Shown here piece by piece: positions 3,903 to 43,020 of a stretch of 64,000 nucleotides of DNA (position 1 is its first letter; each line of letters begins with the position of its first letter). Source of the stretch: Telopea speciosissima (Eukaryota > Streptophyta > Magnoliopsida > Proteales > Proteaceae); assembly GCF_018873765.1 (NCBI RefSeq), contig NC_057916.1:49292540-49356539 (forward strand). The letters run 5' to 3'. A model generated the notes under the pieces. The model did not search any database and was not told the origin of the DNA. It was given only the letters and a program-made list of their open reading frames with translations. Position numbers and translations under genes: made by a program.

Positions 3903-4515
3903 TGATGAGCACATTTATGTGTGAAATTATTCCATTTAATTCTGCATTTTACCTGCTTAGGATGGAGCTACCTTGGGTATTTTCTGTCCTTTTTGGGGTA
4001 CAGGGGTATTTTTGACATATGGGAATAATTGGAGAAAAAGTGCATTTTTTGAGCCTAAATTGAGAAAACCAGGTTGGAGGAGTTCAATGCTACACAGGCA
4101 TCAGTCTACCCATGGATCGAATCACATGTGATCAAGGACGAGATGGGAAGAAGTTTCACAGAAGACCCAAGGGCATAATCGTAATTTCATAAAATTGGGA
4201 GATTTTCAGAAGCTATTTGATATTGGACTCATACCGTCCGGAGTATTAATTGGAGCAACTTTAATTCTCGAGTTGGGGCCACCCAGAGCCAAGAAAGAGA
4301 GATATTCTCAAAAAGAGAATATTGATCAAATTGATAATGTAGATTAAATTCCCTCCCCTCTCTAATATCTTTCTCTCATCTACTACGGATTATTTCTCTA
4401 ATCCCTCTCCCTCTCTTTCTCTCTCTCTTAGTTTCCTAATCCAAACCTTATCTTATCTCTTTTTTTAATTTATTTTATTCACTTAATCTCCCACCTTTCC
4501 TAGTTCTATTCCACT

Positions 4516-4542
4516 TCTCTCTCTCTCTCTCTCTCTCTCTCT
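4516..4542 (+). repeat. TC dinucleotide microsatellite in the N1 5' LTR
   Basis: An uninterrupted TC/CT run; the 3' LTR has the same run at 10823-10853, a few bases longer. Confidence 0.9.
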
Positions 4543-4636
4543 TATATCTCTTCTACTCAAAATCACCTACGGACTCTCTAATCCTACCTCTTTCCTATCT
4601 TTACCTCTTTTTTAATTCTTTTCTTAAAGCTAACAA

Positions 4637-4645
4637 TATAAAAAA
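4637..4645 (+). promoter_or_regulatory. Candidate TATA box of N1
   Basis: TATAAAAAA in the context GCTAACAATATAAAAAACCC, conserved at 10948-10956 in the 3' LTR. It is about 735 bp into the LTR and is the best core promoter candidate. Confidence 0.5.
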
Positions 4646-5468
4646 CCCACGGACAGATTTGGGATCCCATTCGATTCTATAGCCATTAGCCGTGCCCTCT
4701 TCTCTTCTTCTTCTTCTTATTTCATCTTTCTTCTTTTGTTTCTTTTTTGTTTTATTTTTGGATCTTGGGTTTGGCAAGAAGGAGAGGAGGAAGATCACTA
4801 TTCCAGCTTCATGGATCATCATCACCTTTGCTGTCCTTTGTCGCCTTCCACCATGATTGGCTAAGTTCTTTCTATCTTTAGGTGTAGATGAACTAATGGT
4901 GTTTGTTATTTAAAATTCTGGTTTGTATGCTTGATTGATTGATGTTGAGATCCCATCTCAATTTGGATGATTTTAATTGATGTATTTAGTAGAAAAATTT
5001 TGTTTCTGTGATTCATTATTTTTCATTCAAGCAATGGTATTTTGTTCTTATGTGGTTGTACCGATGATGGATTATAGTTGAACGAACTAAGCGTGCCAAG
5101 CCCTATAAGCGAAGGACGATAGTACTCGTCAAGATAGTCCATACCTAGGAGGAACCCTACACTCTGTGGTATTATTAGGCCTGTGGTTATAATAAACCGA
5201 AGCATGCAACCGAATTGAATAGCTACCCATTGGGGATTCGAACCCTAAAGATAGTCTTCTCCCGTATTTGCACAGCGTTGTTAGTTTAGATTTGTTTCTT
5301 TTGTTTTTAGTTTAAAATTCAGATTTATTGCAATTTAATTTTCATCACTTTCACCTAATCATCTTAGTAATTTAGCCTTCTAGTTCCCCGTAGATCGACT
5401 CCTTACTTGCTACTTGCTAGATTAGTTTAGGATTTTATTTTTGACTGGTTAATGACACGATCAAATTT

Positions 5469-5486
5469 TGGCGCCGTTGCCGGGGA
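5469..5486 (+). other. Primer binding site of N1, tRNA-Asp
   Basis: TGGCGCCGTTGCCGGGGA lies five bases after the LTR end. It is the exact complement of the 3' end of plant tRNA-Asp(GTC) including CCA, as I remember that tRNA. Confidence 0.88.
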
Positions 5487-5997
5487 ACTGAAGTACAGTT
5501 GCTAGGATTGATTGAGTTGTTTTGTGTTACTTTGTTTTAATTTTAATTTTATAATTGCAGAATTTTTATTTTTTTTATAATCTCTTTATTAGGTTAATTT
5601 TAGTATACCTAACATTCTCTTTGTTTGTGCAGGAAGCCGAGTAGATTGAGTAGGACAAGCTGTCTGTTTGGTTTACTTTTAATTCCTAGACTTTATGTAA
5701 TTAGGATTATTTTATGTAATTTCTTTATTTTATTCCAGCGTTAGATTGGGTGTTTAGGTTTAACTTTAATTCCCCCAACCCCTTAAGCTTATATGTGTAA
5801 CCGTTCATCAGGGGCAGCACGTGGAATTGCCCAACCGCCAACACCAGGTAAGTATTTTTGTTAGTTTTAAATTAGTTATTTTTTTTTCTTTTTAGTTCTG
5901 ATTTTTATTTTTATTAATTATTTTTATTAGTTATCACGTTTTAAATTACTAGTTTTAATTTTTGTTTAATTAGCACTTTCAACCTGTGTTGTGCTTT

Positions 5998-7735
5998 ATG
6001 CATGGTCGACGTTCTTTGCACCCCAACCTGACTGCCCTTGACTTCGAAATAAAGCAATCTGTGGTTAGACCTAAGGATAATAGTAATAAAATGGGTGACG
6101 AAAATCAGTCAGGAAGGCCGCTGAGTGAGCACTTCACTCCAACTGCCTATACCTCTGCATCTTGTATTCTGCTGCCTGCCATTCAGGCTGCTCAATATGA
6201 GATCAAGTCCAGCATCATACAGATGTTACCATCCTATTATGGACTTGCTAATGAGGAGCCTTACAAGCATCTTGATGAGTTCTTAGAGGTGTGCTCTACA
6301 GTGAAAATCCAAAACCTCTCTAAAGATGCCCTAAAGTTTCTCCTATTCCCATTCTCTTTAAAGGACAAAGCCAAACACTGGCTTCATTCTCTAGATTTGG
6401 TTAGGATTTCTACATGGGCGGGGATGCAGTAGGAATTCTTAAAAAAAAATTTCCCCATTGGCTGGACTAATAGCCTTAGAAGAGCCATTACTAGTTTCTC
6501 CCAATTAGAGGGCGAACAATTTCATGAAGCGTGGGAGAGACTCAAGGAATTACTTAGGAAATGCCCCCACCACGTTGTCCTAAAATGGTAGTTAGTCTAA
6601 TGCTTTTATGATGGCCTCTATGACCGATATAGGCAGATGGTGGACTCCTCTTGTGGTGGAACATTTATGCACAAGAATGAGACAGAAGCATGAGATCTTT
6701 TTGAAACCCTTAGTGAGAATTCCCAACATCATGCTTCGGCCTCTCGGATTGAGATTCCACACATAGGGCAACCAAAGAAAGGCGATCTCTATGAGATCAA
6801 TCCAACTATAGAGATGACTGCTAAGGTTAGTATGCTGTCCAAGAAATTGGACTATCTGATGTCTGTAGGACAGCATTCTATGTCCCCTTTTCCAATGAGT
6901 TTCTCTCCTCCTAATCAGACTGAAGCCTGGGCCTTATGTGCTAGCCCTAGTCATTTTGTGATAAACTGTCCTTCGATTGCACAATACCCTAAATTTGTTC
7001 AGAAACAGGTACAAGTGTCTCAAGGTTTCCCTAAATTGGGTAATGATCCTTTTTCCAATACCTATAACCTGGGATGGCGAAACCACTCTAACTTTTCATG
7101 GAGAAACTTAGTATCTAATAACCCTCCAAACCCACCCTATAGGCCACCATTTAATGTTCAATCTAATGCCTATAGGGGTGGACAACCACCATATCCTCAA
7201 CCCCAACAGAATCAATCCTTTGAGGAAAAGGTGCTAAAAGCATTAAGTGAACTCGAGCAGAACACACAGCTGCTACACTCACATACTCAATCCATTAATA
7301 AGCTAGAGAACCAACTGGGTCAACTAGTTGATGCTATAAGTAGGAGGGAGGTTGGCCAATTGCCAAGTCAGCCAATAGGTAACCCAAATAGTCAAATGGG
7401 TCGAGGGAAAGAGCAAGTCCAATCAGTCACAGTCCTAAGGAGTGACAAAAGGGTGGAAAAATCTGATACACCCTTAGCCACTAATGAGACATTGCCTACT
7501 AAGTCTCAAAGCCAAAGAGAGGCTGAGTCAACCCTAGAGAATTCTGGTGGTGGTGTAGAAACGCATGAGGCCATTACTGAAACACCACCTGTGAAATCCA
7601 CTCATCAGTTCCCAAGGAAGGGCTGCGCATTCCCACTGTGGAAGGACCATAACCTAACTCTTACATTCCAAAGGTTCCTTTTCCCGAAGCCCTTCAGACA
7701 TCAGCCCCAGACTATTTGGATAAAAAGGGTGCAAA
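5998..7735 (+). pseudogene. N1 gag, interrupted by in-frame stops
   Basis: One frame carries the gag from a likely start at 5998 (MHGRRSLHP; the N-terminus ALDFEI is typical of this gag type). It runs through a capsid-like region (EEPYKHLDEFLEVC, then LKDKAKHWLHSL) to a C-terminal part rich in Pro, Asn and Gln. Stops at 6430-6432, near 6588-6600 and near 6689 break it; at least one looks like TGG to TAG. A zinc knuckle remnant (ALCASPSHFVINCP, about 6932-6975) lacks its first Cys, which is Trp here. Toward the end (after about 7610) the frame shifts into the protease frame. Structural role: packaging of element RNA into virus-like particles. Confidence 0.85.
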
Positions 7736-8621
7736 AATGCAAGAGATGATAGACTTATTCCAACAAGTTTGCATCAATCTCCCCCTTTTGGATGCTATCA
7801 AGCAAGTTTCTGCTTATGCTAAATTTTTAAAAGACCTTTGCACCCAAAAGCGTAAGTTGAGAACTCAAATCCCTAAGACTATCCATCTGACTAAACAAGT
7901 TAGCTCTGTAATTTCTAGTTACTTGCCCCCTAAGCTTAAGAATCCAGGTGCGCCTCTTATTTCCTGCATCATTGGAGATCTCTCCATAAGTAGGGCATTA
8001 CTTGATTTAGGGGCTAGTGTGAATATTTTGCCTAGTTCAGTCTATGACAAATTTGATTTAGGAGATTTGAAACCCACTGAGGTCATCCTTCAGTTAGCTG
8101 ATCGTTCAATCCAAACACCTTGTGGGTTGTTAGAAGATATTTTAGTGAAGGTGGAAGAATTGTACTTTCCTGTGGACTTCCTTGTCCTAGATATGGATAT
8201 AGCCACCACAGCCAAGCCTCCCCCTATCATTTTAGGATGCCCCTTCTTAGCTACTGCGAATGCTTGCATAAATTATAGATCGGGTGCCATGGACATCTCT
8301 TTTGGGAATAAGAAGTTCAGGCTTAACATCTTCAATGCATCCTTAGGTTCCTTTAGAGAAGAAGAGTGCTTTGCTTTGGATTTTTTAGATGAAGTTGTGG
8401 CTGATCACACTTCACACATGCTTATTGGTGACCCTTTGCAGCACTATGGAGATGAGTCTGAGGCATACACTAAAGAGGTGCATACTTTGCTAGATTCCTC
8501 ACTCTCTTTAGAACAACCACCTTGGACAGTTAGGTTTGAGCCGTTCCCCCCTTTGGTTACATCTCCCCAACCTTCTTCTAAACCAGCTCCTTGGTATGAA
8601 TTGATCCTTGCCCCTCCATGA
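7716..8621 (+). CDS. N1 aspartic protease (gag-pro end)
   Basis: This is an open frame of 301 codons, probably the continuation of gag-pro and not a separate gene. The retropepsin-like core is visible: LLDLGASVNILPSSVY holds the catalytic Asp (the usual D[ST]G triplet reads DLG here, common in this plant family), and IILGCPFLATANA is the second conserved stretch. The N-terminal part (DLFQQVCINLPLLDAIKQV, KFLKDLCT) is typical of plant Ty3 gag-pro junctions. It would cleave Gag-Pro. No RT follows: the frame stops at 8621 and non-coding sequence begins. Confidence 0.8.
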   Translation: MDKKGAKMQEMIDLFQQVCINLPLLDAIKQVSAYAKFLKDLCTQKRKLRTQIPKTIHLTKQVSSVISSYLPPKLKNPGAPLISCIIGDLSISRALLDLGASVNILPSSVYDKFDLGDLKPTEVILQLADRSIQTPCGLLEDILVKVEELYFPVDFLVLDMDIATTAKPPPIILGCPFLATANACINYRSGAMDISFGNKKFRLNIFNASLGSFREEECFALDFLDEVVADHTSHMLIGDPLQHYGDESEAYTKEVHTLLDSSLSLEQPPWTVRFEPFPPLVTSPQPSSKPAPWYELILAPP

Positions 8622-10195
8622 GTCAGTCAGAGTCTGGCTAAAAACTCTAAACTTAGTGCTCTGTGGGAGGCAACCCACTATTTTTTCTTTATTACTTTTA
8701 TTTTGTGTTAGTTTGTTTTTATTTTTTTTTTAGGTAGCTGCTACTGATTGCTGGATGCACTATTCTGCCAGGTATTGCTAATTTCTGGTACACTCCTTCC
8801 CTTATCCCTATTTTTATTCTTCTGTATGCATTGAGGACACTGTATACTTTAAGTGTGGAGGGGGTGTGAGACCGATTGACAGATTTTTATTTTTTGGCTT
8901 CTAGTAAGTTTTACATGTCTCTTTGTTACTTTGATGCGAAACACGAGAGAGAGAAACTTAGGAACCCTAATCTGAAGTAATGAAAACCCTGTTGAGAGGA
9001 CAGAAGCTAATGTATCCTAAGGTGGGTTTTGACTCAGACGATAAGAGCCCCATTTTGTTAAAGGGACAGACCACTTGACTGTGTTGTGTTTCTTTGAGCT
9101 TTTGGTTAGGAGCTGAGACCAAGTTTAGTTTTGGCGTGACATATAAAAAAAAAAAAACAAAAATCATGAAAGTTTAGTTTTGTTGCTTCAACTTAGTAAT
9201 CGGGGCATCTAGGCCACTAGCCCAGAGTCTTGCGTAAAACGGTTGGAGTGACTAGTTAGATTATTATTACTTGTATTCTTGAATCCAGTGTGGGCTTGTA
9301 GCCTTTTTGGTTCGAGTGAGTAAGCCCGAGGAGTGTTTCACACTCAATCCCCTAAAGCCATCTGGCTTGGGAGTGGTTGGCTTAAAGCTCGTTACATGAG
9401 CCTTCTAGAAAGCTTAAAAAGCCAGAACATTGCACGGATCTGAGAATCACATAATTAAAAAATAAAAAATAAAAAATAAATAAAAAGGAATAAATAAAAG
9501 TAAGAGTTGAATTCCTTGGAGCTAGACAGGGCACTCCGCCTCAGAAAGCGAGGTGACTTGATCGACACTCCATGGGGTGAAACCTCTGAAAAGGAACTCT
9601 AGCATCACTATCCTTGTGGATATATGTAAGAAACAAAGCTACCAAGTAGCTCGTGTGTCTTGTGTAGTGACCCTGCATGGCATTTGAGGAATAGTAGTGG
9701 AGTAACAAATAGAGTTCACTGTTTTGAAAAAAAAAAAAAAATGTCATTGCCTTGGTACAATTGTATGGTAAAAAATGCTCCGAAGCCTAAAGTCCTTGGT
9801 GCCCTTGATGTCATGAGTGGTCTTACCTTAAGTAAGATGGTGTTTGGAAGATATGGGGAGATTCCTTAATTAGGATGTGTACCTGCTGCTAGAATCAATG
9901 TTGGGTAATAAAGAGCTCAAGTGTGGGGGTACCTTTGTCTTCTTGATCTTAAGTAGGGCATCTTAGTTTCGGGTTTGGTGTGTGCTTCTTACCCATTGTC
10001 AGAATTTAAATTTGCAATCATGAATTTTGTGTGTATATTCCCTGCAAACACTCACGAGACAAAACTCGTCCACTAGGGGTAACCTAGGGGTTTAAAGGCT
10101 TGTTGCACATGCTAAGTGCAACCGTGATTCCTACGAAAGTGAGTTAGGGTTTTTGTTTTCTTTATTTTTCTTTTGCTCGAGGACTAGTAAAATCT
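8622..10195 (+). other. N1 long 3' internal non-coding region
   Basis: About 1.6 kb between the protease stop and the polypurine tract, with no domain-bearing ORF. It includes a hairpin just after the stop (8663-8678), A/T-rich stretches (9149-9162, 9455-9490, 9725-9741) and long segments also present in N2. Examples are 9501-9560 with 25280-25345 (opposite strand) and 10041-10150 with 24700-24800 (opposite strand). Confidence 0.75.
8663..8678 (+). other. Hairpin after the N1 protease stop
   Basis: GTGGGAGGCAACCCAC is a perfect 5-bp stem (GTGGG/CCCAC) with a six-base loop, about 40 bases after the stop codon. The GGGAGGCAACCC motif recurs at this place in plant gag-type LTR elements as I remember them. 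Confidence 0.6.
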
Positions 10196-10210
10196 AAGTG
10201 TGGGGGTATT
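10196..10210 (+). other. Polypurine tract of N1
   Basis: AAGTGTGGGGGTATT ends directly before the 3' LTR start TGATGAGCAT at 10211. N2 has the matching tract on the other strand next to its 3' LTR. Confidence 0.75.
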
Positions 10211-10819
10211 TGATGAGCATATTTATGTGTGAAATTATTCCATTTAATTCTGCATTTTATCTGCTTAGGATGGAACTACCTTGGGTATTTTTTGTCTTTT
10301 TCAGCGTACAGGGGTATTTTCGACATATGGGAATAATTGGAGGAAAAGTGCATTTTTGGAGCCTAAATTGAGAAAACCAGGTTGGAGGAGTTCAATGCTA
10401 CACAGGCATCAGTTTACCCATGGATCGAATCACATGTGATTAAGGGCGAGATGGGAAGAAGTTTCACAGAAGACCCAAGGGCATAATCATAATTTCATAA
10501 AATTAGGAGATTTTCAGAAGCTATCCGATATTGGACTCATACCGTCCGGAGCATTAATTGGAGCAACTTTAATTTTTGGGTTGGGGCCACCCGGAGCCAA
10601 GAAAGAGAGATATTCTCAAAAAGAGAATATTGATCAAATTGATAATGTAGATTAAATTCCTTCTCCTCTCTAATGACTTTCTCTCATCTACGACGGATTG
10701 TTTCTCTAATCCCTCTCCCTATCTTTCTCTCGCTCTTAGTTTCCTAATCCAAACCTTATCTTAGCTCTGTTTTTAATTTATTTTATTCACTTAATCTCCC
10801 ACCTTTCCTAGTTCTATTC

Positions 10820-17682: not shown

Positions 17683-19343
17683 ATGTCTGAGTCTGATGTA
17701 GACCTTGAATTCGATTTCAATGAATTACTTTCTTTTGGTTACATTGTGCCTCTCCTTTCTCACATAAGTAAGGATAAAGTATTCAATGATCTTCCGCATT
17801 GGTCTTCTAAAATAATACAACAAAATGAAGAAAAGAGAGCTCAACCAATCCTTGAGAGCTTTAAAATCATCAATTTAGGATCACTGGAATTGCCAAGAGA
17901 AATAAAAATCAGCTCAACTTGGAATGAACAAGAGGTCCAACCTCTGATTAAACTTTTAAAATAATTTATAGAAGTGTTCGCATGGTTATATGATGACATG
18001 CCCGAAATTGACACCAACATTGTCACACACCGTCAACCTTTATACCATGGAATGAAGCCAGTAAAGCAAAAACTTAGGCCGATGAGACCGAAATGGATCT
18101 TGAAGATCAAAGAGGAAGTCACTAAATAACTTGAAGCAGGATTTCTAGAAGTGACGGAGTACCCTGAATGGTTGGACAACATTATGCAAGCCCAAAGGAT
18201 GACTTTCCCCTATCCCACATTGATATACTTGTAGACAATATGACCAAACATGCCCTTCTATCTTTTATGGACGGGTTCTCAATGTACAACCAGATCAAAA
18301 TGGTGCTCAAAGACATGCAAAAGACATCCTTTATAACTCAATGGGGAACATACTATTACAAGGTAATGTCATTGGGATGCAAAAATGATGGAGTAACCTA
18401 TCAAAGGGCGGCAACCACCATTTTACATGACCTAATGCATAAAAAGGGTTGAGGTCTATGTCGATGACATGATTGTCAAGTCAAAAGAACGAGAGGGACA
18501 CGTTGAAGCCTTAAGAAATTCTTTGAAAGAATTACGAAATACAAGCTAAGGCTAAACCCCCAGAAGTGTGTATTTGGAACCACAGCTGGAAAACTCTTAG
18601 GGTTCATAGTCAACCACAGGGGCATTGAGGTCGACCCCACCAAGATTAAGGCAATAATGGACATGCCACCACCCAAAACCAAAAAAGAAATTAGATGATT
18701 TCTCAGAAGAAACTGATACATTAGTTGGTTCATTTCTCGGTTAACCATGGTGTGCGAAACAATCTTCAAGTTATTCAAGAAGAATGAACAAAAGGAATGG
18801 AATGAGTAATGCCAGGCCGCGCTCAAAACAATCGAAGAATACTTGGCCAACCCACTAGTATTGGCACCACCGATATCTGACAAACCTTTATTATTTTATT
18901 TGTCCATGACGGACACAGCCATGGGGGCAATGCTAGCACAACAACATGAAGATGGCAAGATGGAATAGGCCATATACTATTTGAGCAAGAAGTTTGTGGA
19001 CTATGAGACTAGATATACAACACTAGAGAAGGTCTGCACAGCTCTGATTTGGGCCACAAGGCGGTTGAGGCATTACATAATAGCCCACCAAGTATTCTTG
19101 ATCTCGAGGATGGATCCAATCAAGTACCTATTCGAGAAAACCGCCTTAACAGGGAGATTAGCACGATGGTTGCTCTTATTATCAGAGTTTGATGTCAAAC
19201 ATGTGACGCAAAAATCAATCAAAGGACGAGCAATCACTGATCACTTATCAGCACATCCAACCCTTGAAACTAGACCATTGAAAGATATATTTCCCGACGA
19301 GCATATTGTGCATTTGGAACCAGAAGGTGCTGATACGGTGTAG
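17683..19343 (+). pseudogene. Tat-A reverse transcriptase and RNase H
   Basis: RT is spread over shifted frames. An N-terminal part ends near 18170 (SDVTEYPEW-like text); a deletion of roughly 80 bases then removes the block that normally reads VPKKDGKVRMC. The palm follows: SPKDDFPLSHIDILVDN, FMDGFSMYNQIKM, then YVDDMIVKSK at 18457-18486 (catalytic YVDD at 18457-18468) and LRLNPQKCVFGTTAGKLLG. RNase H follows (SKKFVDYETRYTTLEKVC, then LISRMDPIKYLFEK, 18981-19343). Stops and shifts make it inactive. It would copy element RNA into DNA. Confidence 0.82.
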
Positions 19344-19790
19344 CAGTTACTATTTAATGGAGCAGCCAATCACAAGAGTTGCGGAGCCAGCACACCACTA
19401 ATCGCTCCTAAAGGAACCCATATGACCAAAGCATTTAAGCTTAACTTTGAGTGCATTAACAACATGGCTGAATACGAAGCTGCGCTATAGGACTTGAGGC
19501 CGCCTTATCAATAGGACTCATGAGACTAAAAGTCTTGGGGGACTCCTCCTTGGTCATATGCCAAATGCAAGGAAATGGAAAACTAAAGATTAGAAGTTGA
19601 TACCCTACCAAGAACATGTGGAGACCTTATCTAGGGAATTTGAAGAGATCACTTTCTCCTACTTGCCAAGAGATAACAATCGGTTCGTCGATGCACTAGC
19701 CACGCTTGCATCCATGGTTGAGATGGACTCTGAAAAAAAATATATCCATTCTCAATTAAACTAAGACATCAACTGGCATACATCAATCAC
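19344..19790 (+). pseudogene. Tat-A second (archaeal-type) RNase H
   Basis: Directly after RT-RNase H the sequence reads FNGAANHKSCGAS, then APKGTHMTKAF and NNMAEYEAAL near 19350-19490. This is the pattern of the extra RNase H that marks Tat elements (the usual first Asp is Asn here). The end reads RDNNRFVDALATLASM near 19670-19720. A frameshift after AEYEAAL and later stops break it. Confidence 0.78.
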
Positions 19791-21042
19791 ATCCATGCCT
19801 TGACGACTGATGGAAGACCATGGTACGCAAACATAGTGGGTTTCATTAGGGAAGGACGATACCCTAAGGATGCTACAACTAAAGAGAAGCGTTTCTTTAG
19901 GAGATACGCTACACAACTCATCCTATTGGAGGATATCCTATATAAGAGGTTGTACGATGGAGTGCAACTATTATGCATTGATGAAGAACAATCAAAACTA
20001 ATCATGGATCAAATTCACCAAGATATATGTGGGCCTCATATGAATGCAAAAATGATGGCCAAAAAGATCCTTAGATTAGGGTATTATTGGAACACCATGG
20101 AAGCGGATTGCGCCCAATATGTGAAGAAGTGTCACAAGTGTCAGATTTTTAGTAATCTTATACATACACCACCTTCAAAGGTACATACTCTGAGTTCTCC
20201 TTGGACATTCGCCACTTGAGGTATTGACGTCATTGGCTAAGTTGTCCCCATGTCTTCTAATGGTCACGAGTAAATTCTAATAGCCATCGACTACTTTACC
20301 AAATGGGTGAAAGCACAATCTTATGCCAAACTAACGGTAGCCAAGGTGGCTAAGTTCATAAGCAACAATATCATGTGCCGATATGGAGTCCCTCATGAAC
20401 TCATATCAGATCAAGGATCCCACTTCAGGGGAGAAGTGAAGAAATTGTACGACAAGATGAACATTCAAAGGCATACATCATCTCCTTATAGGCCTCAAAT
20501 TAATGGTGCAGTGGAAGCCACCAACAAAAAATTAAGAGGATAATACAGAAGATGGCAGACAAACACAATGATTGGGCCAACAAGCTACCCTATGCACTTG
20601 GGCATACAAAACATCCATCCAAATTTCGACTGGGGTGACACCCTACTCACTAGTCTATGGAATGGAAGCAGTCCTTCTAGTCGAACTAGAGATAGTCTCC
20701 CTCCGAGTCATGATGGATAGCGACCTTCCAGAAGCATAATGGATCAAAGCAAGATTCTAGGAACTAAATCTCATTGATGAGAAACGGATGCGCGCCATGG
20801 ACAATATGAAGAAATACCAACAAAGGATGATGCAAACATTCAACAAGAAGGTTGTACCATGCCAACTATCCATTGGTGATTGGGTGCTTAAAGAACAACG
20901 AGCACCCATACATGATCAACAAGGCAAATTTAGGCCCAATTGGAAAATACTACCCGACCGGGCAGTACGAGTAGTGGATCTAGATGAGAACGAGCTCCCT
21001 TATTTAAGAAACATGGATCAGCTCAAGAAGTACTATGTCTAA
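19791..21042 (+). pseudogene. Tat-A integrase
   Basis: An HHCC zinc-binding part is clear: HQDICGPHMNAKMM and CHKCQIF (20014-20150). The core carries all three acidic residues: GIDVIG (about 20220-20237), ISDQGSHFRGE (about 20405-20436) and NGAVEATNKK (about 20500-20530). The end reads VRVVDLDENELPYLRNMDQLKKYYV and stops at 21042. Stops at 20218-20220 and 20239, plus frame shifts near 20540 and 20600, break it. It would join element DNA to the chromosome. Confidence 0.85.
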
Positions 21043-21772: not shown

Positions 21773-21781
21773 TTAAAAAAA
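21773..21781 (+). repeat. 9-bp target-site duplication of the Pack-MULE, left
   Basis: TTAAAAAAA directly outside the terminal inverted repeat. The right copy is TTAAAAGAA at 30193-30201 (8 of 9 identical). Nine bases is the Mutator-family signature. Confidence 0.75.
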
Positions 21782-22007
21782 GGGAAAATTACACTACCAC
21801 CCCCTGAGGTTTGTATTAAATACAGACTGACCCCCTATATTTTTAAATTATACAGTCGCACCCCCTGAGTTCTCACTCCGTTACTTAGGTGTTACGGTAT
21901 TAGTTAAGTTTGCCTTCAAATGACTAATATACCCCCCTTTGAAGGTGTGAATTTACCATTTTGCCCATAGGGCATCCCTCACTTCCCACCCCCTTCCCCT
22001 GTTACTC
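21782..22007 (+). repeat. Left terminal inverted repeat of the Pack-MULE
   Basis: Starts GGGAAAATTACACTACCACC and ends CCTGTTACTC. It matches the reverse complement of 29968-30192 almost throughout. Confidence 0.9.
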
Positions 22008-22708
22008 GATCCATGGTTTGGTCAAGAATTTGACCAACCCCAAAATTTGCAATCTTGACTTGATTTCTTATGTTGATAAGGAGATTCGAGGGTTTGATGT
22101 CTCGATGAACGATCCTGCACCGGTGGAGGTAAGCGAGGCCACAAAGGATCTGATAACCACAGAGGCGAGAATTGGTTCATTGGCGATGTGTTTTTGTTCA
22201 AGAGATCCATCGTCCATGTATTTGAGGGGGACTTGGATTTTGCCGCCGTAATCGAACATTCTGTGGCACTTGACAATGTTAGGGTTGTCAACAGTTCGAA
22301 GGATCTCGATCTCGCAGTAGATCTGGCGGTGACCAGAGTCTTCATGGTTTTCGTAGATGACTTTGAGGGCGTAGAGACGGCCAATGGGTTTATGATGGAC
22401 TCTGTAGATAGTTTCACCACTGTCGCTTCTGACGCAGTTGAGCCTCAATTCTTCTCTCACTCACAATGAAAGCTAAGAGCTTGCTCGAAGACAACCCAAC
22501 TAGGGGATTTTACCTCTTTTTGTTGAATTGCTTCAGGCGCTCAAAGGCCTATGGTAGAGATCAGAGGTATTTGGCCCCCAAAAGTAGCGACGGAAGGGAG
22601 AGGGATGACGAAGGAAGGGTCGTGTTGGGGGAGAGGGAGGGTTAGGTCTGGTTTACGACGAGAAAGATTTGTAGTGGTTGTGGGCAGTGGGGGTTGAATC
22701 GGTCTCAT
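22008..22708 (-). pseudogene. Captured MAP kinase kinase fragment (MKK4/5 type)
   Basis: The minus strand starts with ATG at 22708-22706 and reads MRPIQPP, then RRKPDLTLPLPQHDPS, the N-terminal basic/Leu docking region typical of plant MKK4/MKK5. After a frame shift the kinase domain follows. The glycine-rich loop is decayed (RSDSGETIYRV). The Lys block GRLYALKVIYENHEDS, the hinge region PLKYMDDGSLE and, after another shift, the catalytic loop [10 protein letters not shown] (about 22078-22107) are readable. The DFG motif reads NFG (about 22043-22051). The fragment ends after ILDQTM, directly at the TIR, so the activation loop and C-lobe are missing. It cannot be an active kinase. The parent gene would phosphorylate MPK3/MPK6-type kinases in defence signalling. 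Confidence 0.88.
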
Positions 22709-22858
22709 GACTTGGTTTTATGCTTCTTTTTCTTATATTTCTCCTCCTCCTCCTCCTCTTCCTTCTGCTTTTCCTTCCCCATCAACTTCTTCTTCTTGTT
22801 CTTCTCTTTCGCCTTCTTTATCACCAATGCCTTCCTCAACAACTCGTAAAACACCTGT
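22709..22858 (-). pseudogene. Lys/Glu-rich possible captured exon of unknown origin
   Basis: On the minus strand, after a TTTATACAG splice-acceptor-like end, an open stretch of about 50 codons reads VFYELLRKALVIKKAKEK and then Lys- and Glu-rich repeats (KEEEEEEEKYKKKKHKTKS). It stops at a TGA overlapping the ATG of the MKK fragment (22705-22709). I do not recognise the source gene. It may be a third captured exon or the 5' UTR of the MKK fragment. Confidence 0.35.
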
Positions 22859-22937
22859 ATAAAATAGAAACACAGAGCATAAAGATGTTGATTTGCCTCT
22901 CTTCAGCATCCATGAGCACAACTAGAATTTTAGTACA

Positions 22938-22942
22938 AGTAT
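22938..22942 (+). repeat. Target-site duplication of N2, left copy
   Basis: AGTAT before the N2 LTR edge TGTTTGCG; the same bases are at 29556-29560. Confidence 0.9.
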
Positions 22943-24621
22943 TGTTTGCGTAAAATAATAACTGCAAGAGTACAGATCAATCGTAGCTACGGGTCGAACT
23001 CAAGGAGATATACGCCACCGTATTTTCCTCACTTTAAAGTAATGCAAAGTGAACCAAATTAAAGTGTTAAATTAAACTAATTAAACTAACAAAAATTAAC
23101 GTGTCCTAACTCACAAGCTTCTAACGAATGAAATTGGCGTCCTAACACATATCCATCTAACCTATTAAACTAACGCGGATTGGAAGGGATAGATTGCAGC
23201 CACACACCACAACCACATAAAAAAAAAATAAAAGAAGAAGAAGGATGATGGGATAGAAGAGTGGGAGAATGAGTTTAAGAGTTTCAGAGAGTAAAAACCT
23301 GTAGTTAAAGAGCTTGAATACTTAAACAAACCTGGCATGGCTTCCTCTTCTAAATCTCCAAGTCTTGTCATCAACTTAGGAACTTAGACTAGAAAGCTTG
23401 AAACTAAACTAGAATTATTACAACCATATTGAAGATATAAAATTAAAGCATGAATCAAAAGCATTACAACCATGGAATTGAAAGCATGAAATCAAACTAG
23501 AACTTAGAAAGCCAAAAACTAGAAGAAGAGAAGAAGAAATTTCACTAATTAATTGAACTAAAAACTGAATAAAAACTAAACTAAAACTAACTTAAAAACT
23601 GAACAAGAACTAACTAAAAATTAACTTGTTACAACCCAAAGGGCAAGCGGTATTTATAGGGGTAAGAGGAGAAGAGGGAAGAGAGAAGAGGTAGGAGAAA
23701 TATTCCCTAAGAGAAGAGAATATTCTCTTCTACTTCCTTCTTTGCATTACTTGAATCCTAAGAAAAAAGAGAAAAATAGAAACTAAGAGAGATAAAAATC
23801 CTAGTTACATAAACCTTCTATTTTTCAAAAAGTAACTTTCTAATTCTAAACTTGTGCTTCCTTTTCTTTGTAGGTGTCTTCTCCAAGCAATGAGATCAAG
23901 GCATCTTTGACTTTTCAGCCTTCCATGGATGAGAGAATATTTTTTCAAAAGAAATCTATTCATAGTAAAATTCCAAAAGTACCCCTAAAAAGTTGGAGGA
24001 GAGAGAGAATAAGGGTGATGACTAGGATTCCACTCAATCAATTAATCAAATACCCATTAAGTCCTCTAGAAAAATCGTGGAGGGTGTGTGTGCACCCTCT
24101 AAAAATCATGGACAACTATGGGCCTTCAAAAATTGTGGAACCCTGTGGTAGTGTGGGTCCCCCCCATGTGGCTAGCAGTCCTTCTCTCTCTTCAAGAATG
24201 AAAAATTACCGAAACAATCCTGTACTTGCAGTAGATCTCCACCATTGCTTAGAAGTACCTTCTTTAATGTCAAAAATGTCCTTGGGCAATGGCAAAATGA
24301 CTATGGGCTTGCACTACAGCTCCTTTCTAACCCATTATCCATTCTTGGGCTGAAAAGAATAATCAAATGCATGGAGGCCTAAATGGATGCGTAACTGAAT
24401 TCCGTCACGTGAATCTTACTCAAAATTTAGCTCTTAACACAATCATATAAAAACATTGGGCAGCTTTACGTGTAAATTTGGAGATGTAACCCCCGATAGT
24501 CCAGAATAGCAATAAATAGGCCAAAAACCTGAAAAGCATAAGAAAGCACCAAGTAACTCTGTCAAATGTGGTAAAATGTATGCTTTATGCCCTAAGATTT
24601 CACACATAAATGTGCTCATCA
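22943..24621 (-). repeat. 3' LTR of N2
   Basis: It reads from TGATGAGCAC at 24621 leftward to GCAAACA at 22943. It matches 27863-29555 over its length with substitutions and small indels; the ORFs in it on the plus strand (23874-24353) are chance frames. A TATA box on the minus strand lies at 23651-23658. Confidence 0.9.
23651..23658 (-). promoter_or_regulatory. Candidate TATA box in the N2 3' LTR
   Basis: The minus strand reads CCCCTATAAATACC. The other LTR has the same motif near 28589-28597. Confidence 0.55.
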
Positions 24622-24637
24622 AATTCCCCCACATTTG
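24622..24637 (-). other. Polypurine tract of N2
   Basis: The minus strand reads AAATGTGGGGGAATT directly before the LTR start TGATGAGC, as in N1. Confidence 0.75.
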
Positions 24638-25686
24638 AATGATACTTGTCCTTAAGTAAAGCAAAAGAAAAACTAATCTAGAATGCAGAAAATCCTAACT
24701 CACTTTCGTAGGAATCACGGTTGCACTTAGCATGTGCAACAAGCCTTTGAACCCCTAGGTTACCCCTAGTGGACGAGTTTTGTCTCGTGGGTGTTTGTAG
24801 TGAATACACACCCAAAATTCAATTGTAAATGAATGGTGCAAATTTTAATCATGGCATAAGCAGGACAGTGCACATAATCCCAAAAAGTGCTCAACTAAAG
24901 ATCAAGGAGCCAAAGGTTCCCTCACACTTGAATTTTATCACCCCACATCAATTCAAGTAACAAGCATGCATCAAGTTCAAGGGATCTCCTCATATCTTCT
25001 GAACACTACTTACCTTCAGGTAAACCACTCATAGCATCGATGGAACCAAAGACTTAGGCTTTGAGTATTTTTTACCACACTTTCTTTTCAGGCATTAAGG
25101 CAAAAGTTTTTCTTTCACAATAGTAAACTCTATTTCTGCTCCACTCCTATTCTCTGAATGACATGGTAGAGCATACACCAGACACCCAAATACTTGGTAG
25201 CTTCGCTTTTTGCATATATCCATAAGACATTGAGGCATTGATGAACGAGTTTTTTTTTTTTGAGTTTCCTTCCAAGGAATTTCGATCAAGTCACCCTGCT
25301 TCATGAGGCACAGTGCCCTGTCTAGTCCTAAGGAATTCCACTTTCTTTTCTGTTTCTTTCACTTTTTCTTTTTTTTTACTTTCATGCCTTGCCTTGCCAC
25401 AAACAAATTGGTCTCAACTACCAGCCAAAAGATCAAAGGGTCCATAAAACACATAGAGGAATCTAGCCATCAAATGAAATAATGCTCATATTTTCCAACT
25501 CAATCCCTCTCACGAAATACAAACCAACTACCATCCTTGAAAAGAGATTTTTTTATTATTTCGCATGCTAGGGCACCTAATTCCCTCTTTCCTTCGCTTT
25601 GCAATCAAAGAAACGTATGCATAAAATCAAACTACCGCCAGAATCAAAATTCACCAATTAAGCCCAATACCCCCCCCATACTTAAT
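24638..25686 (-). other. N2 3' internal non-coding region, shared with N1
   Basis: There is no domain-bearing ORF. On the minus strand it follows the same order as N1 9501-10195: a segment with CTAGACAGGGCACT, a segment with CTACCAAGTA, and a block of about 105 bases at 24700-24805. That block differs from N1 10041-10145 at only a few positions by eye. Confidence 0.75.
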
Positions 25687-27278
25687 TCATGTAGTGTCCT
25701 CAATGCATGCAGAAAAAAAAGAATAAGGACAAGAGAGGAGATGAATGGGCTTACCAAATATAATCAAAAGGGGATCATGAAGAGTCATGTGCTCTACAAC
25801 AAGTACTTGGGGCATTAAAAGAAATCTCAATCCATGGCCGGCAAATGTAGAAAGAGCTTCAGAACCAGAAAACACTCGACTATGAATTTTAGTAAAGAGA
25901 GAAATAATATAGAACTTAAGCACAACTGAGAAATATCCAACAGAAAAATCTGTCCTCATGGGACAGTGAAAAATGAAGGCAATAAAACTCATGCCATAAA
26001 TCCTCCCCTTCTCTCCCGTTTGCAATGTAGAACACATGTCATGTTTAGAAAAACCAACCAAAAATAGATCACAGTAAGCATCAAAAGAATCATAAATATC
26101 AGTAACCTCATCAAGATAATCATAAAAAATGAGAGTTTTACTCAAATCAATCCTAGCAATAGAACTGTCCGCTCTTTGCAGAACTTGGTTTGTCAAATCA
26201 GGATCACGATAATTTGCTTCAAAAGCATCATGACTAACATTGTCCTCTTCAACAAAATCACCAAACCTAGGAGGTTTGGACAAATCAACATGTGAGACAA
26301 TGGAATCCTCAAAATGACAATTATCTGGGTTTTCCAAAGAGAGAGAGGGAGATCGAATTTCCTGGGTTTCTATGCTACCATAAAAATCTTATTCTAAATT
26401 AGTAGAAACAATAGGCTCACTAAGATAAAAAATTTCAGGCAAAAGCTGGACTTTCCCAGGTGGCTCATCAAACTGTGCTTCACTAACATCTTCAGGAGAC
26501 TCAATCTCAACAAATAAATCATCTTGATGATCAGTTTGTTGGGGTGGACTCTCATTAATTTCAAACTGGGGTGGTGGACTTTCAACATCACTAAACTGGG
26601 GATGGGGTGGTTCAGGCTGACTAGGTAATGTACCCGTTTCCTCCTTTTGCACCATGGTGATCAGTTGAGAGAGTTGCTTCTCCCTGATATTGTGGCTTGT
26701 CGTGAGAAGGGCTATATGTTTCTCAATCTCACTCAGTCTAGCCTCGTCACCCATTTTCTGAAACTTAGGGGGTTGGTGATATGGTTTAAGGAGAGGTGGC
26801 CCAGTGAGATTCAATGGAGGGTTGGGCATTGGAGGACCAAACTGACCATGGGATTGGAAATTGGGTGGTCCAGCTTGGTTATTCCATTGATCCCACGAGA
26901 AATTGGGACGATCAGTCCACCCCTGATTGTAAGTGCTAAAAGAATTGTACTGAAATTGAGGACTCACGTTCTCATCACCATAGCTACCCCCATAAAGATT
27001 AGGGCATCCTTCCATAACATGGATAGCTTGGGGATGTGACCAATCAAAATTTTTTGAAAGCCCATAGTTGGGTTGGGAACAAAATTGTACTAAGGTGGTG
27101 CAAAGTTATTCTCTAACTCTCTACTTTTGGCCGCCCTAGCCTGGTTAAACCTTTCTCCCAAGGTCATATGTGCCTTAGCATGGTTCCACCTTTCTCCCAA
27201 AGTCATAGGTGCCTTAGCTTGGTTCCACCTTTCCCCTAAAGTCATAGGTGGCGGTGTACCTCCTATTATTCTAGACAT
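25687..27278 (-). pseudogene. N2 gag-related protein with an unrecognised C-terminal half
   Basis: The minus-strand frame starts near 27278 (MSRIIGGTPP) with three 13-residue MTLGERWNQAKAP-like repeats. After a shift near 27085 it reads VMEGCPNLYGGS and YNQGWTDRPNFSWDQ, as in the C-terminal part of plant Ty3 Gag. It continues through Pro/Gln-rich and acidic stretches to a TAA at 26389-26391. The same frame goes on (26337-25687) with two similar units (VDLSKPPRFGDFVEEDNVSHD and IDLSKTLIFYDYLDEVTDIY), then a hydrophobic stretch (FSVVLKFYIISLF). It has no capsid core, knuckle, protease or RT. Function is unknown. Confidence 0.6.
27143..27259 (-). repeat. Three 39-bp tandem repeats in the N2 coding region
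   Basis: Units begin at 27143, 27182 and 27221, exactly 39 bp apart. Being a multiple of three, they keep the frame and encode 13-residue repeats (MTLGERWNxAKA). Confidence 0.85.
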
Positions 27279-27838
27279 GCATAAACTAACCACCTATCCC
27301 AAATTGAGGTCTCCCTTAGACAAATTAAAGAAAAATAAAAGACTAGAAAAAATTCACTAAAAACATGAGGGAATAAATAGACAGTTGGTGCATTGGCCTC
27401 AAAAATCGAAACAATGGTTCCAAAGTTGTAAGGGTGTCATATAGGTTTATAGCAAGGGAACCCGTATAGTCTTCTATAGCCACCTACGTGCGACTCCAAG
27501 TGCATTCTAATGTAGAATAGAGGACTACTATACGTTTCTGTTTCCAAACCACTCACTCTGTCGACGTCACTTTCCAGTTATTAAAGTTGGTCACCTCCAA
27601 AGATAAGTCATATGCCATTCCACCCAACCAAGTCAAGAATCCTATGAGGGGCACCAAAAGAGGTTGAGTTTGAGCACAAGAAGGACTTTAGATTGGGCGC
27701 ACAGTCTTTGAAACAGAAGAGAAACAATATGAGGTTTTCAAAAACTGAAAATTTTTTTTTTACAAGAAAAAAAAAAAAGAAAATAAACTAAGCACTCTGA
27801 ATTACTTAAAATTCAGAAAAATAAAGTGGACAATAATC

Positions 27839-27856
27839 TCCCTGGCAACGGCGCCA
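27839..27856 (-). other. Primer binding site of N2, tRNA-Asp type
   Basis: The minus strand reads TGGCGCCGTTGCCAGGGA, one mismatch from the N1 site, next to the 5' LTR (27863-29555). Confidence 0.85.
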
Positions 27857-27862
27857 AAAACT

Positions 27863-29555
27863 TGGTTGCACAAAATAATAACCGCAAGCGTACGGATCAA
27901 TCGTTGATACGGGTCGAACTCAAGGAGACATACGCCACCCTATTTTCCTCACTTTAAAGTAATGCAAAGTGAACCAAATTAAAGTGTTAAATTAAACTAA
28001 TTAAACTAACAAAAATTAACGCGTCCTAACTCATAAGCATCTAACGAATTAAATTGGCGTCCTAACACATATCCATCTAACCTATCAAACTAACGTGGAT
28101 TGGAAGGGATAGATTGCAGCCACACACCACAACCACATAAAAAAAATAAAAGAAGAAGAAGGAGAATGAGATAGAAGAAGAGAGAATGAGATAGAAGAGA
28201 GGGAGAATGAGTTTAAGAGTTTTAGAAAGTAAAAACCTGTAGTTGAAGAGCTTGAACACTTGAACAAACCTTGCATGGCTTTCTCTTCTAAATCTCTAAG
28301 CCTTGTCATCAACTTAGGAACTTAGACTAGAAAGCTTAAAACTAAACTAGAATTATTACAACCATATTGAAGACATAAAATTGAAGCATAAATCAAAAGC
28401 ATTACAACCATGGAATTGAAAGCATGAAATCAAACTAGATCTTAGAAAGCCAAAAACTAGAAGAAGAGAAGAAGAAATTTCACTAATTAATTGAACTAAA
28501 AACTGAATAAAACCTAAACTAAAACTAATTTAAAAACTGAACTAGAACTAACTAAAAATTAACTTGTTACAACCCAAAGGGTAAGGGGTATTTATAGGGG
28601 GAAGAGGAGAAGAGGGAAGAGAGAAGATGTAGGAGAAATATTCCCTAAGAGAAGAGAATATTCTCTTCTCCTTCCTTCTTTACATTACTTGAATCCCAAG
28701 AAAAAAAAGAAAAATAGAAACTAAGAGAGATAAAAATCCTAGCTACATAAACCTTCTATTTTTCAAAAAGTAACTTTCTAATTCTAAACATGTGCTTCCT
28801 TTTCTTTGTAGGTGTCTTCTCCAAGCAATGAGATCAAGGCATCTTTGACTTTTCAACCTTCCATGGATGAGAGAATATTTTTCAAAAGAAATCTATCCAT
28901 AGTAAAGTTCCAAAAGTGCCCCTAAAAAATAAGAGGAGAGAGAGAATAAGGGTGATGACTAGGATTCCACTCAATCAATTAATCAAATACCCATTAAGTC
29001 CTCTAGAAAAATCATGGAGGGTGTGTGTGCACCCTCTAAAAATCATGGACAACTATGGGCCTTCAAAAATTATGGAACCCTGTGGTAGTGTGGGTACCCC
29101 CATGTGGGTAGCAGTCCTTCTCTCTCTTCAAGAATGAAAAATTATCAAAACAATCCTGTACTTACAGTAGATCTCCACCATTGCTTAGAAGTACCTTCTT
29201 TAATGTCAAAAATGTCCTTGGGCAGTGGCAAAATGACTATGGGGTTGCACTATAGCTCCTTTCTGACCCATTATCCTTTCTTGAGCTGAAAAGAATAATC
29301 AACTGCATGGAGGACTAAACGGATGCGTAACTGAATTCCATCACGTCCATCTTGCTTAAAATTTAGCTGAACACAGCCATGCAAAAACATTGGACAGCTT
29401 TACGTGTAAATTTGGAGATGTAGCCCCTAATAGTCCAAAATAACAATAAATAGCCCAAAAACTTGAATAGCACAAGAAAGCACCGAGTAACTCTGTCCAA
29501 TGTGGTAAAATGTATGCTTTATGGCCTAAGATTTCACACATAAATGTGCTCATCA
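27863..29555 (-). repeat. 5' LTR of N2
   Basis: It is the partner of 22943-24621. Both copies keep the tip sequences and the TATA-like box; they differ at scattered bases and at a short repeat near 28150-28200. Confidence 0.9.
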
Positions 29556-29560
29556 AGTAT
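29556..29560 (+). repeat. Target-site duplication of N2, right copy
   Basis: AGTAT, identical to 22938-22942. Confidence 0.9.
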
Positions 29561-29676
29561 GGGAGAGCTTTTCGATATCCTTTTTGACACCCGCAATCAA
29601 TCGTACTTCTGGTTGGATCCTTTTGGATGAGTATGGCCGATTGCTGGATGACACTGGAAACAATAATAACAACCAT

Positions 29677-29967
29677 TGTTGGTGTGATGATCAATGAGAA
29701 AGAAATGAAATTAAAGTAGCAAGGAGGGAGACACTTCTACAAATGCACAGGATTGTTTAATTAGTTTTGAAGGATAGAAGTGCCGCCATATATACGATTC
29801 TTGGTATTCTTGGTGCATTAATATAGTTGCAGAGACTCATATAGCTTGTCTCTGTGGTGGCTATTAAAATAGGGGTGGTGATGTGTGGAGGGTTTGGGAC
29901 GTATAGGGTTTTGGTGCCATTATCTCTGTAACGATTCTCTTCGACCCCTAAACCATCTTTCTGATTT
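29677..29967 (-). other. Pack-MULE sequence upstream of the NLR fragment
   Basis: This stretch between the NLR fragment start and the right TIR has no ORF or domain. It may be captured upstream or promoter sequence of the NLR gene; no clear TATA box at a useful place stands out. Confidence 0.4.
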
Positions 29968-30192
29968 GAGTAATAGGGGAAGGGGGTGTGAAGTTAGGGA
30001 TGCCCTATGGGCAAAATGGTAAACTCACACCTTCAAAGAGTGTATATTAGTCATTTTAAGGCAAACTTAACTAATACCGTAACACTTAACTAACAGAGTG
30101 AGAACTCAGGGGGTGCGGCTATATAATTTAGAAACACAGGGGGTCGCTCTATATTTAGTACAAACCTTAAGGGGTGGTAGTGTAATTTTTCC
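29968..30192 (-). repeat. Right terminal inverted repeat of the Pack-MULE
   Basis: The reverse complement starts GGAAAAATTACACTACCACC and matches 21782-22007 to the inner end TTACTC. Confidence 0.9.
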
Positions 30193-30201
30193 TTAAAAGA
30201 A
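30193..30201 (+). repeat. 9-bp target-site duplication of the Pack-MULE, right
   Basis: TTAAAAGAA; the left copy TTAAAAAAA differs at one position. Confidence 0.75.
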
Positions 30202-41929: not shown

Positions 41930-43020
41930 CTAATGGCTACACAAAATATTTTTTAATTGGTCCATGTTGACAAGGCCCTTGACGTCTTCTCCATCAAAAT
42001 CTCCTTCTTCGATGTTCCGCAAGCGAACTCCTTTGTTGAAGGCCCTCACCATTCTGAGTTGGTACTTTTTGAGGTGATCCATGGCTTTCATCCTTTTCTC
42101 ATCTAGCAGGTTGAACTCATCATACCTTTCCTGCATCCATTCTTCTTCGGGTAATTTGTAGTCCATCAATACTCTAAGAGATGGTACTTGGATTTTAAGG
42201 GTAATACTACCTCCATTCCACAGACCAATGAAAAAGGAGTTGCCACAACAAAAGTTCAAATGGAAGTCCGATAAGCCCATAACGCATATGGGAGCTTGTC
42301 TGCCCAATCTCTATGAGTATCAGCCTTTTTTTGCAATATGACTTTGGCATTTTTGTGGGCTACTTCCACTGCTCCGTTAGCCTGTGGGCTATAAGTTATA
42401 GACCAGTGTCTCTTGATACCAAACTTGGCACAAAACTTATCTATTTTTTCCAAAAAATGTTCTCCCTGATTGGATATGAGGTCGTGTGGCAATTCGTATC
42501 TGCATATGATATTTTCCTTGATGAACTTTTCTACCTTCGCAGTTGTCAAGACGGCGTAAGATTGTGCTTCCACCCATTTGGTGAAATAATCTATGGCGAC
42601 GAGGATGAATTTATGTCTGTTGGATGCTTTCGGTGTCATCTTCCCTATGATATCAATGCCCCATGTGGAGATGGCCAGGGAGCATTCAATGAATGGAGTT
42701 CCATGGGAGGAATGTGAATAATGTTGGCAAATATCTGGCACTTGTGACATCTTTTCATGAACGTGGCACAATCTTCTTCCATGGGGCATTGGCATTCATA
42801 TGCGGTCCGCAAATTCCCTGAAGGATTTCTTTCATGATTGTTTGAGCTTGTTCCTCATTTACACAGAGCAGTTGTATGCCTCGTAAGATTTTTTGTACAA
42901 CAAGTCTCGTTGGAGCATGAATTGTGTGGCATACTTTCGTAGCCGCTTCTTTTCACCCATTGTGAAACATTCAGGATACCTCCTTTCTCTGATGAAGTCA
43001 ATTATGGGTGTGAACCATAT
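41930..43020 (-). pseudogene. Tat-B integrase
   Basis: It reads FIRERRYPECFTMGEKKR at the start, a zinc-binding part in shifted frame (about 42880-42720), then the core: WGIDIIGKM (42660-42634), LISNQGEHF (42480-42454) and NGAVEVAHKN (about 42380). The second catalytic Asp reads Asn (AAT at 42471-42469), so even without the frame shifts it would be inactive. The end is FNKGVRLRNIEEGDFDGEDVK to VNMDQLKN at 41960. Confidence 0.85.

Follow-up and report, generated by a model that had tools for sequence, protein, structure and literature searches.

The 64,000-nucleotide stretch of Telopea speciosissima DNA that we investigated (contig NC_057916.1; hereafter the window) contains, at 21782-30192, an element that on its sequence features is a non-autonomous Mutator-like element carrying fragments of host genes (a Pack-MULE), assembled from several sources and ordinary for its kind. 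Very probably this element took up a single block of a MAP kinase kinase gene of the MKK4/5 type, was patched with DNA from a nucleotide-binding leucine-rich repeat (NLR) gene and with a filler that includes a scrap of mitochondrial cox3, was then split by a long terminal repeat (LTR) retrotransposon and decayed, and most likely has no role in immunity now. An earlier note, made by reading the same sequence, had described a Pack-MULE joining fragments of two immune-signalling genes, and had suggested that a joint transcript could give small RNAs against both parents. The observation itself holds, with several changes to the anatomy; the immune theme and the proposed function are not supported.

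The termini of the element and its family

The left terminal inverted repeat (TIR) lies at 21782-22007 on the plus strand and has matches among a TIR family present in the genome; the right TIR lies at 29968-30192 on the minus strand, and there the family similarity reaches inward to about 29921. The two are 89.8% identical over 226 alignment columns (204 of 228 in a longer global alignment). The 9-bp target site duplication (TSD) reads TTAAAAAAA at 21773-21781 and TTAAAAGAA at 30193-30201, with agreement at 8 of 9 positions; 31 of the 63,991 9-mers in the window differ from the left copy by one mismatch or less. Within the window the terminal 22-mer, allowing three mismatches, is present at the two ends of the element only, and in shuffled sequence it does not occur. 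The available part of PMC3310237 gives roughly 100-500 bp for MULE TIRs, and 9-11 bp with at most two mismatches for MULE TSDs; the 226-bp TIRs and the TSD found here lie within both ranges and agree with the lengths given in the earlier note.

Elements with the same TIRs, which that note had suggested looking for, do exist elsewhere in the genome. A first look returned 1070 candidates, and 40 of these were scored, two being the element's own ends and 38 lying elsewhere. Ten further elements with paired TIRs were sampled (L006 and L009-L017). Allowing offsets of up to one base, their TSDs agree at 9 of 9 positions in six (in one of them through a one-base offset) and at 8 of 9 in three. The recurrence of these TIRs with TSDs across the genome identifies them as a MULE family.

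MULEs are mobilised by MURA-type transposases from autonomous relatives. Pfam scans over the full length of the element in all six frames (E up to 0.05) found no transposase between the TIRs; they returned kinase matches and, all three below their cut-offs, CBP_BcsF, PGAP1_2nd and NuA4. Without the nested retrotransposon the element measures about 1793 bp, and as far as the genome was searched it is single-copy. Its host-gene fragments have counterparts in the same genome, namely an MKK parent on contig C4 and coiled-coil (CC) NLR genes, hereafter CNL genes, on contig C11, which are relatives and not a close parent.

Probably one block of an MKK4/5 gene, interrupted twice

Three pieces of the element, all on the minus strand, come from MKK4/5 DNA. 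The 3' part of the coding fragment (22008-22442) covers parent codons ~78-222, stops just after QTMD and is 91% identical to the C4 parent (L043:1916-1481). The 5' part (22595-22719) holds codons 1-38, with the ATG at 22708, preceded by 11 nt of leader, and is 93% identical (92.8% in a local re-alignment) to L043:2158-2034. The third piece (29796-29906) matches, at 88%, the promoter DNA at C4:31442031-31442142, upstream of the MKK start. The earlier note had correctly placed the MKK and NLR fragments on the minus strand, but had missed this upstream piece, which lies beyond the NLR fragment.

The identity of the kinase is well supported. In a comparison with PDB sequences, the frame at 22068-22460 matched Arabidopsis MKK5 (7xbr) with 109 bits, the runner-up being MEK1 with 36 bits, and the next MKK frame matched the same chain collinearly with 60 bits (runner-up GCN2, 47 bits); overall, the alignment with Arabidopsis MKK5 shows 92 identities in 144 residues. 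The short N-terminal piece alone has no match in Pfam or the PDB and was placed by genome DNA instead. The best genome match of the MKK piece is C4:31441281-31441947 (91-92% identical), and a paralogue on C11 is 83-87% identical. The C4 gene has an intact 381-codon open reading frame (ORF) beginning at the matching ATG, inside a 404-residue open frame with a full kinase domain. The assignment to MKK4/5 made in the earlier note is confirmed by these matches, and the parent that genome alignment was expected to reveal is found in the same genome. MKK and NLR are separate gene families, and the two coding pieces are not parts of one unrelated gene. Among the 12 genome matches to the MKK piece are the window itself, two at the C4 gene, two at the C11 gene and seven that are weaker or short; none of them is a second copy of the element.

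The captured kinase is incomplete. It ends at about codon 222, its linker has been replaced, its frame is disrupted by a 1-bp deletion, and the DFG motif has become NFG. The description of the fragment as the first two thirds of an MKK is right in that it runs from codon 1 to about codon 222 of 381, but about 39 codons within this span have been replaced by filler. The filler (22443-22594, minus strand) is 152 bp long and stands in place of 117 bp of MKK linker; a few bases at its 5' edge in the sense direction may be MKK. It includes, at 22548-22584, 37 bp of cox3 that match two places on contig C12 with 95% identity each. The first of these, L048, encodes COX3 (274 bits), and C12 (1.44 Mb) may be mitochondrial DNA or contain some. 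L048 and the second C12 locus, L049, are identical over 4505 bp.

Read in the sense direction, the element consists of TIR, MKK upstream DNA, NLR start, the LTR element, the NLR leucine-rich repeat (LRR) piece, MKK codons 1-38, filler, MKK codons ~78-222 and TIR. The gaps between these MKK pieces are short in the parent, with 73 bp from the upstream piece to the 5' part and 117 bp from there to the 3' part; the NLR DNA stands in place of the 73 bp of MKK 5' leader. Because MKK pieces lie on both sides of the NLR piece and keep the parental order, they appear to form one collinear block that was interrupted twice. The simplest reading is that a single MKK block was patched twice from other templates, and the interruptions look like break repair with template switching. 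Fillers and template switching of this sort are described for animal Pack-TIR elements in the available part of PMC8277862. The element studied here resembles those gap-filled single-copy elements in that it is apparently single-copy and has internal breaks filled from other templates; it differs in being a plant MULE, filled with mitochondrial DNA and DNA of other contigs, with a mechanism read from one sequence.

The NLR piece

The NLR start comprises an ATG at 29676, a CC piece and a 5' leader of about 33 nt (29561-29709, minus strand), and is 78% identical to L063:6984-6785 and L062:1181-1358. The CC (Rx_N) piece continues past the LTR insertion at 22888-22942 (minus strand), where it is recognised by an Rx_N match and by genome DNA. 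It is followed at 22720-22893 (minus strand) by a piece from the LRR region of a CNL gene, including an acidic low-complexity stretch, with matches of 69-81% in L045, L046, L047, L062, L063 and L064. A 33-residue CC piece matches Rx_N with E=2.8e-5 and 24.6 bits, just below the curated cut-off of 27.7, and none of eight shuffled versions did so. Its first 20 residues alone gave no match, Rx_N is not returned when the complete element, LTR insertion included, is scanned against Pfam, and a composite query had no match in the PDB. At the DNA level, the two parts flanking the insertion (29709 to 22888) gave matches of 71-78%, 90-208 bp long, to CNL loci (L046, L047, L053/L063, L056, L057, L062 and L064 on C11, and L058 on C7), and in the genome search the NLR piece reaches up to 80% over about 120 bp. 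These matches to CNL genes settle its identity as NLR. One of the loci, L062, encodes Rx_N, NB-ARC and LRRs across two adjoining frames.

In L046, L062, L063 and L064 some 2.1-2.3 kb separate the CC match from the LRR-piece match downstream of it. The NLR piece therefore has an internal deletion; its joint lies at about 22888-22893, the overlap of the two L062 matches. The element does not hold a CC, NB-ARC and LRR gene: some 57 CC codons are fused to the LRR-region piece, and there is no NB-ARC match. The earlier note had named the family correctly from the coiled-coil start, but the NLR DNA reaches to about 22720 and includes the LRR-region piece. The stretch 22893-22720 had also been considered as part of a third gene, in which it would be the final exon for a lysine-rich protein (minus-strand VFYELLRKALVIKK...KHKTKS with an apparent splice acceptor); this was rejected, as in the genome it matches LRR-region DNA of the CNL cluster on C11.

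Between the NLR start and the MKK upstream piece lie 86 bp (29710-29795, minus strand) that contain TATATATGG and probably belong to the upstream region of the NLR gene itself. This TATA-like motif, at 29794, was considered as the promoter of the element and set aside, since the MKK upstream DNA, with a TATA-like motif of its own, sits further upstream; both motifs may be TATA boxes. The motif of the parent, CTATATAAG, reads CTATATGAG in the element.

The nested LTR retrotransposon

A non-autonomous LTR retrotransposon of 6.6 kb occupies 22943-29555 (minus strand), with LTRs at 22943-24622 and 27863-29555, TG...CA ends, and an AGTAT duplication on each side (22938-22942 and 29556-29560). The LTRs are identical at 1582 of 1673 aligned bases (K=0.057). 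The orientation is assigned from the sequence at about 27841-27862, beside the LTR, which we take to resemble a tRNA-Asp-type primer-binding site. No retroelement Pfam domains were found in its reading frames. The insertion cuts the NLR coding piece in two, so that the MKK coding part now lies on one side of it and the NLR start and MKK upstream DNA on the other. The minus-strand placement of the NLR piece in the earlier note was right; the split by a nested LTR element is added here to that description. A second LTR element, in the opposite orientation, lies at 3903-10235 of the window; it is related to the nested element both in its LTR ends (3903-3927 and 10211-10235) and, with 74% over 776 bp, in its internal region, and its ORFs at 5974-8621 look gag-like by eye.

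Decay and timing

The substitutions that separate the MKK fragment from its C4 parent were polarized with the C11 paralogue as outgroup over 545 sites. The 47 differences divide into 40 on the fragment side, 6 on the parent side and 1 that was not assigned. By codon position the fragment-side changes number 11, 16 and 13, whereas five of the six parent-side changes fall at position 3. Nonsynonymous differences account for 28 of 47 (60%), where random C:G to T:A changes would be expected to give 64%, and no stop codons were created. On these counts the MKK fragment evolves neutrally, without protein constraint.

Most of the fragment-side changes (34 of 40) are C:G to T:A. By context, C-to-T changes affect 17 of 78 CG, 10 of 41 CHG and 7 of 145 CHH sites, and transitions at A/T sites 2 of 223 (Fisher tests: CG plus CHG versus CHH, P=2.6e-5; C/G versus A/T, P=8e-8). 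Long methylation of CG and CHG sites leaves C-to-T changes at these sites. The decay pattern therefore fits DNA that was long methylated and apparently silenced, the methylation itself being read from the pattern of substitutions.

The total divergence is K=0.115 for the TIRs and, as given above, half as much for the LTRs. Taking half of K for the repeats, and assuming that the TIRs were identical at insertion, the divergence per lineage is about 0.057 for each TIR and about 0.028 for each LTR, compared to 0.073 (40/545) for the MKK fragment. On this ranking (0.073 > 0.057 > 0.028), capture came first, the last transposition followed, and the LTR element inserted after that. At the rate of 1.3e-8 substitutions per site per year used in the available part of PMC5664825, these events would fall at about 5.6, 4.4 and 2.2 million years, respectively, though in methylated DNA such absolute dates are unreliable.

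History of the element

The collinearity of the MKK pieces suggests that the element would first have taken up one MKK4/5 block, from upstream DNA to about codon 222. Two breaks in this block would then have been filled from other templates, the first with an internally deleted CC-NLR segment and the second with the 152 bp that carry the cox3 scrap. The TIRs and the TSD mark the element as a transposed insertion, and the nesting, the LTRs and their TSD indicate that the LTR retrotransposon entered the NLR piece later. The MKK piece has decayed with no sign of constraint on its protein, and C-to-T changes at CG and CHG sites make up most of this decay; the pattern is observed, and probably reflects methylation.

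Several observations weigh against this history. The order of block first and patches second is deduced, and separate captures could have given the same arrangement. About 105 bp of the filler (22443-22547) have no source in the genome search, in which the cox3 37-mer was the sole match, and the 86 bp upstream of the NLR start lack a source as well. The low-complexity part of the LRR piece gives 51-55-bp matches of 78-80% at both MKK loci, so the LRR-region assignment rests on the non-repetitive end of the piece, 22893-22812. The MULE TSD is A-rich and has one mismatch, and in one of the ten sampled relatives, L016, the TSD agrees at only 6 of 9 positions. The genome alignment suggested for the NLR parent did reveal relatives in the C11 CNL cluster, but none closer than 78-80%, compared to 91-93% for the MKK, and none that qualifies as a close parent. 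The source of the NLR piece may have been a gene that was since lost or that changes rapidly, or the piece may have been captured at another time.

Alternatively, a series of independent captures could have supplied the filler, the NLR pieces and each of the three MKK pieces. The division of the MKK DNA into three matches separated by gaps is compatible with such a series; however, all three retain the parental order and orientation, and the parental gaps between them are only 73 and 117 bp, for which one block is the simpler explanation. We consider serial capture unlikely.

Somewhat less likely still is that the element is a functional regulatory Pack-MULE, in which a transcript running through the element would give rise to small RNAs, and these would silence NLR genes as well as the MKK4/5 gene. 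Small RNAs have been reported for rice Pack-MULEs and genic MULEs in the available part of PMC4858842, and in this element the MKK upstream DNA precedes the NLR start. Many 21-mers of the MKK stretch, filler included, are close to the parent (377 of 693 with two differences or fewer), as are 93 of 352 NLR 21-mers to the sampled NLR loci, some of which may fall in the low-complexity part; in one shuffled NLR piece no 21-mer came closer than 4 mismatches. However, perfect 21-mers are limited (66 of 693 for the MKK stretch and 13 of 352 for the NLR piece), the LTR element splits the unit, the decay is of the type seen in silenced elements, the TATA-like motif of the parent is altered, and the genome search with the MKK piece found no second copy. 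With the lack of protein constraint, these observations leave the small-RNA proposal of the earlier note unsupported, and action through small RNAs today is unlikely. One could imagine that, before the LTR insertion, the captured MKK4/5 promoter drove one transcript through the NLR start, the LRR piece and the MKK coding part, yielding small RNAs against the NLR family and the kinase that were tuned by MKK4/5 expression, and that some trans-silencing persists; to this conjecture we give slightly less credence again.

That the locus is a chimeric host gene or pseudogene, a rearranged MKK/NLR with chance flanking repeats and no transposon, would agree with the shared orientation of the MKK and NLR pieces but is almost certainly wrong, given the 38 other scored genome matches to the 226-bp TIRs and the 9-bp TSDs in nine of ten relatives.

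The immune theme

The pairing of two gene families that act in immunity, which had drawn attention to the element, is likely incidental and probably due to chance, because elements with the same TIRs carry pieces of other genes and the genome is rich in Rx_N (at least 150 matches, from 150 of 209 candidates that were scored). DNA comparison of the ten sampled relatives with the element gave matches at the TIR ends only and revealed no MKK or NLR DNA in them. Four have clear Pfam matches to other genes: L012 (G000:C3:38097310-38099170) carries a C-terminal fragment of Hs1pro-1 (273 bits); L016 (G000:C5:32281360-32283220) also carries Hs1pro-1, assigned to it by tblastn against L012 after two of 24 batch frames had matched; L015 (G000:C2:16569650-16571520) carries PPR repeats; and L017 (G000:C4:44559450-44561600) carries a glycosyltransferase-20 fragment (217 bits). 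The Hs1pro-1 pieces of L012 and L016 are 89% alike over about 1 kb, and L010 and L006 contain parts of the same piece, which suggests that it was probably amplified. In L009, L011, L013 and L014 the 24-frame Pfam batch matched six families (best Plasmod_MYXSPDY, 1.6e-7, and DUF6786, 1.6e-5), each in a single frame, and these were not counted as captured genes. The name Hs1pro-1 is itself associated with resistance, but glycosyltransferase-20 proteins (trehalose-phosphate synthases) and PPR proteins are not known to act in immunity. The element studied here thus shares with its relatives the TIR family, 9-bp TSDs (in nine of the ten) and, for several, the presence of gene fragments, and differs in that theirs are from Hs1pro-1, PPR or glycosyltransferase-20 genes, whereas its own are MKK and NLR. 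The same-TIR elements with PPR and glycosyltransferase-20 fragments leave the immune theme proposed for the captured genes without support.

Surroundings of the element

A host gene around the insertion was considered and rejected: the Pfam matches to the left are Ty3-type pol domains, with RVT_3 just below its cut-off, and the only one to the right is DUF6548, below cut-off. Just left of the MULE, 18200-20850 holds remains of a Ty3-type reverse transcriptase, RNase H and integrase, and 20300-20847 is 64% similar to 42033-42580. Long plus-strand ORFs at 59722-63792 resemble, by eye, those of a LINE-type (non-LTR) retrotransposon.

Significance

Pack-MULEs are known from rice, maize, Arabidopsis and tomato, as described in the available parts of PMC3310237 and PMC4858842. 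The element described here differs from those accounts in the plant that harbors it, in the combination of MKK4/5, CC-NLR and mitochondrial cox3 filler, and in the placement of MKK upstream DNA before an NLR start. In the literature searched, which offers partial coverage, we found no Pack-MULE that pairs MKK4/5 with an NLR and none with a MAP kinase kinase. Multi-source elements of this kind have been known before, and it is the combination of genes that differs. The identity of the captured genes is no ground for assuming a function in immunity. The value of the element lies in providing a clear and roughly datable example of how a Pack-MULE may be assembled and die, through capture of a block, two patches including mitochondrial DNA, apparent silencing and splitting, in which base-by-base comparison with an intact parent exposes methylation-type decay in captured gene DNA.

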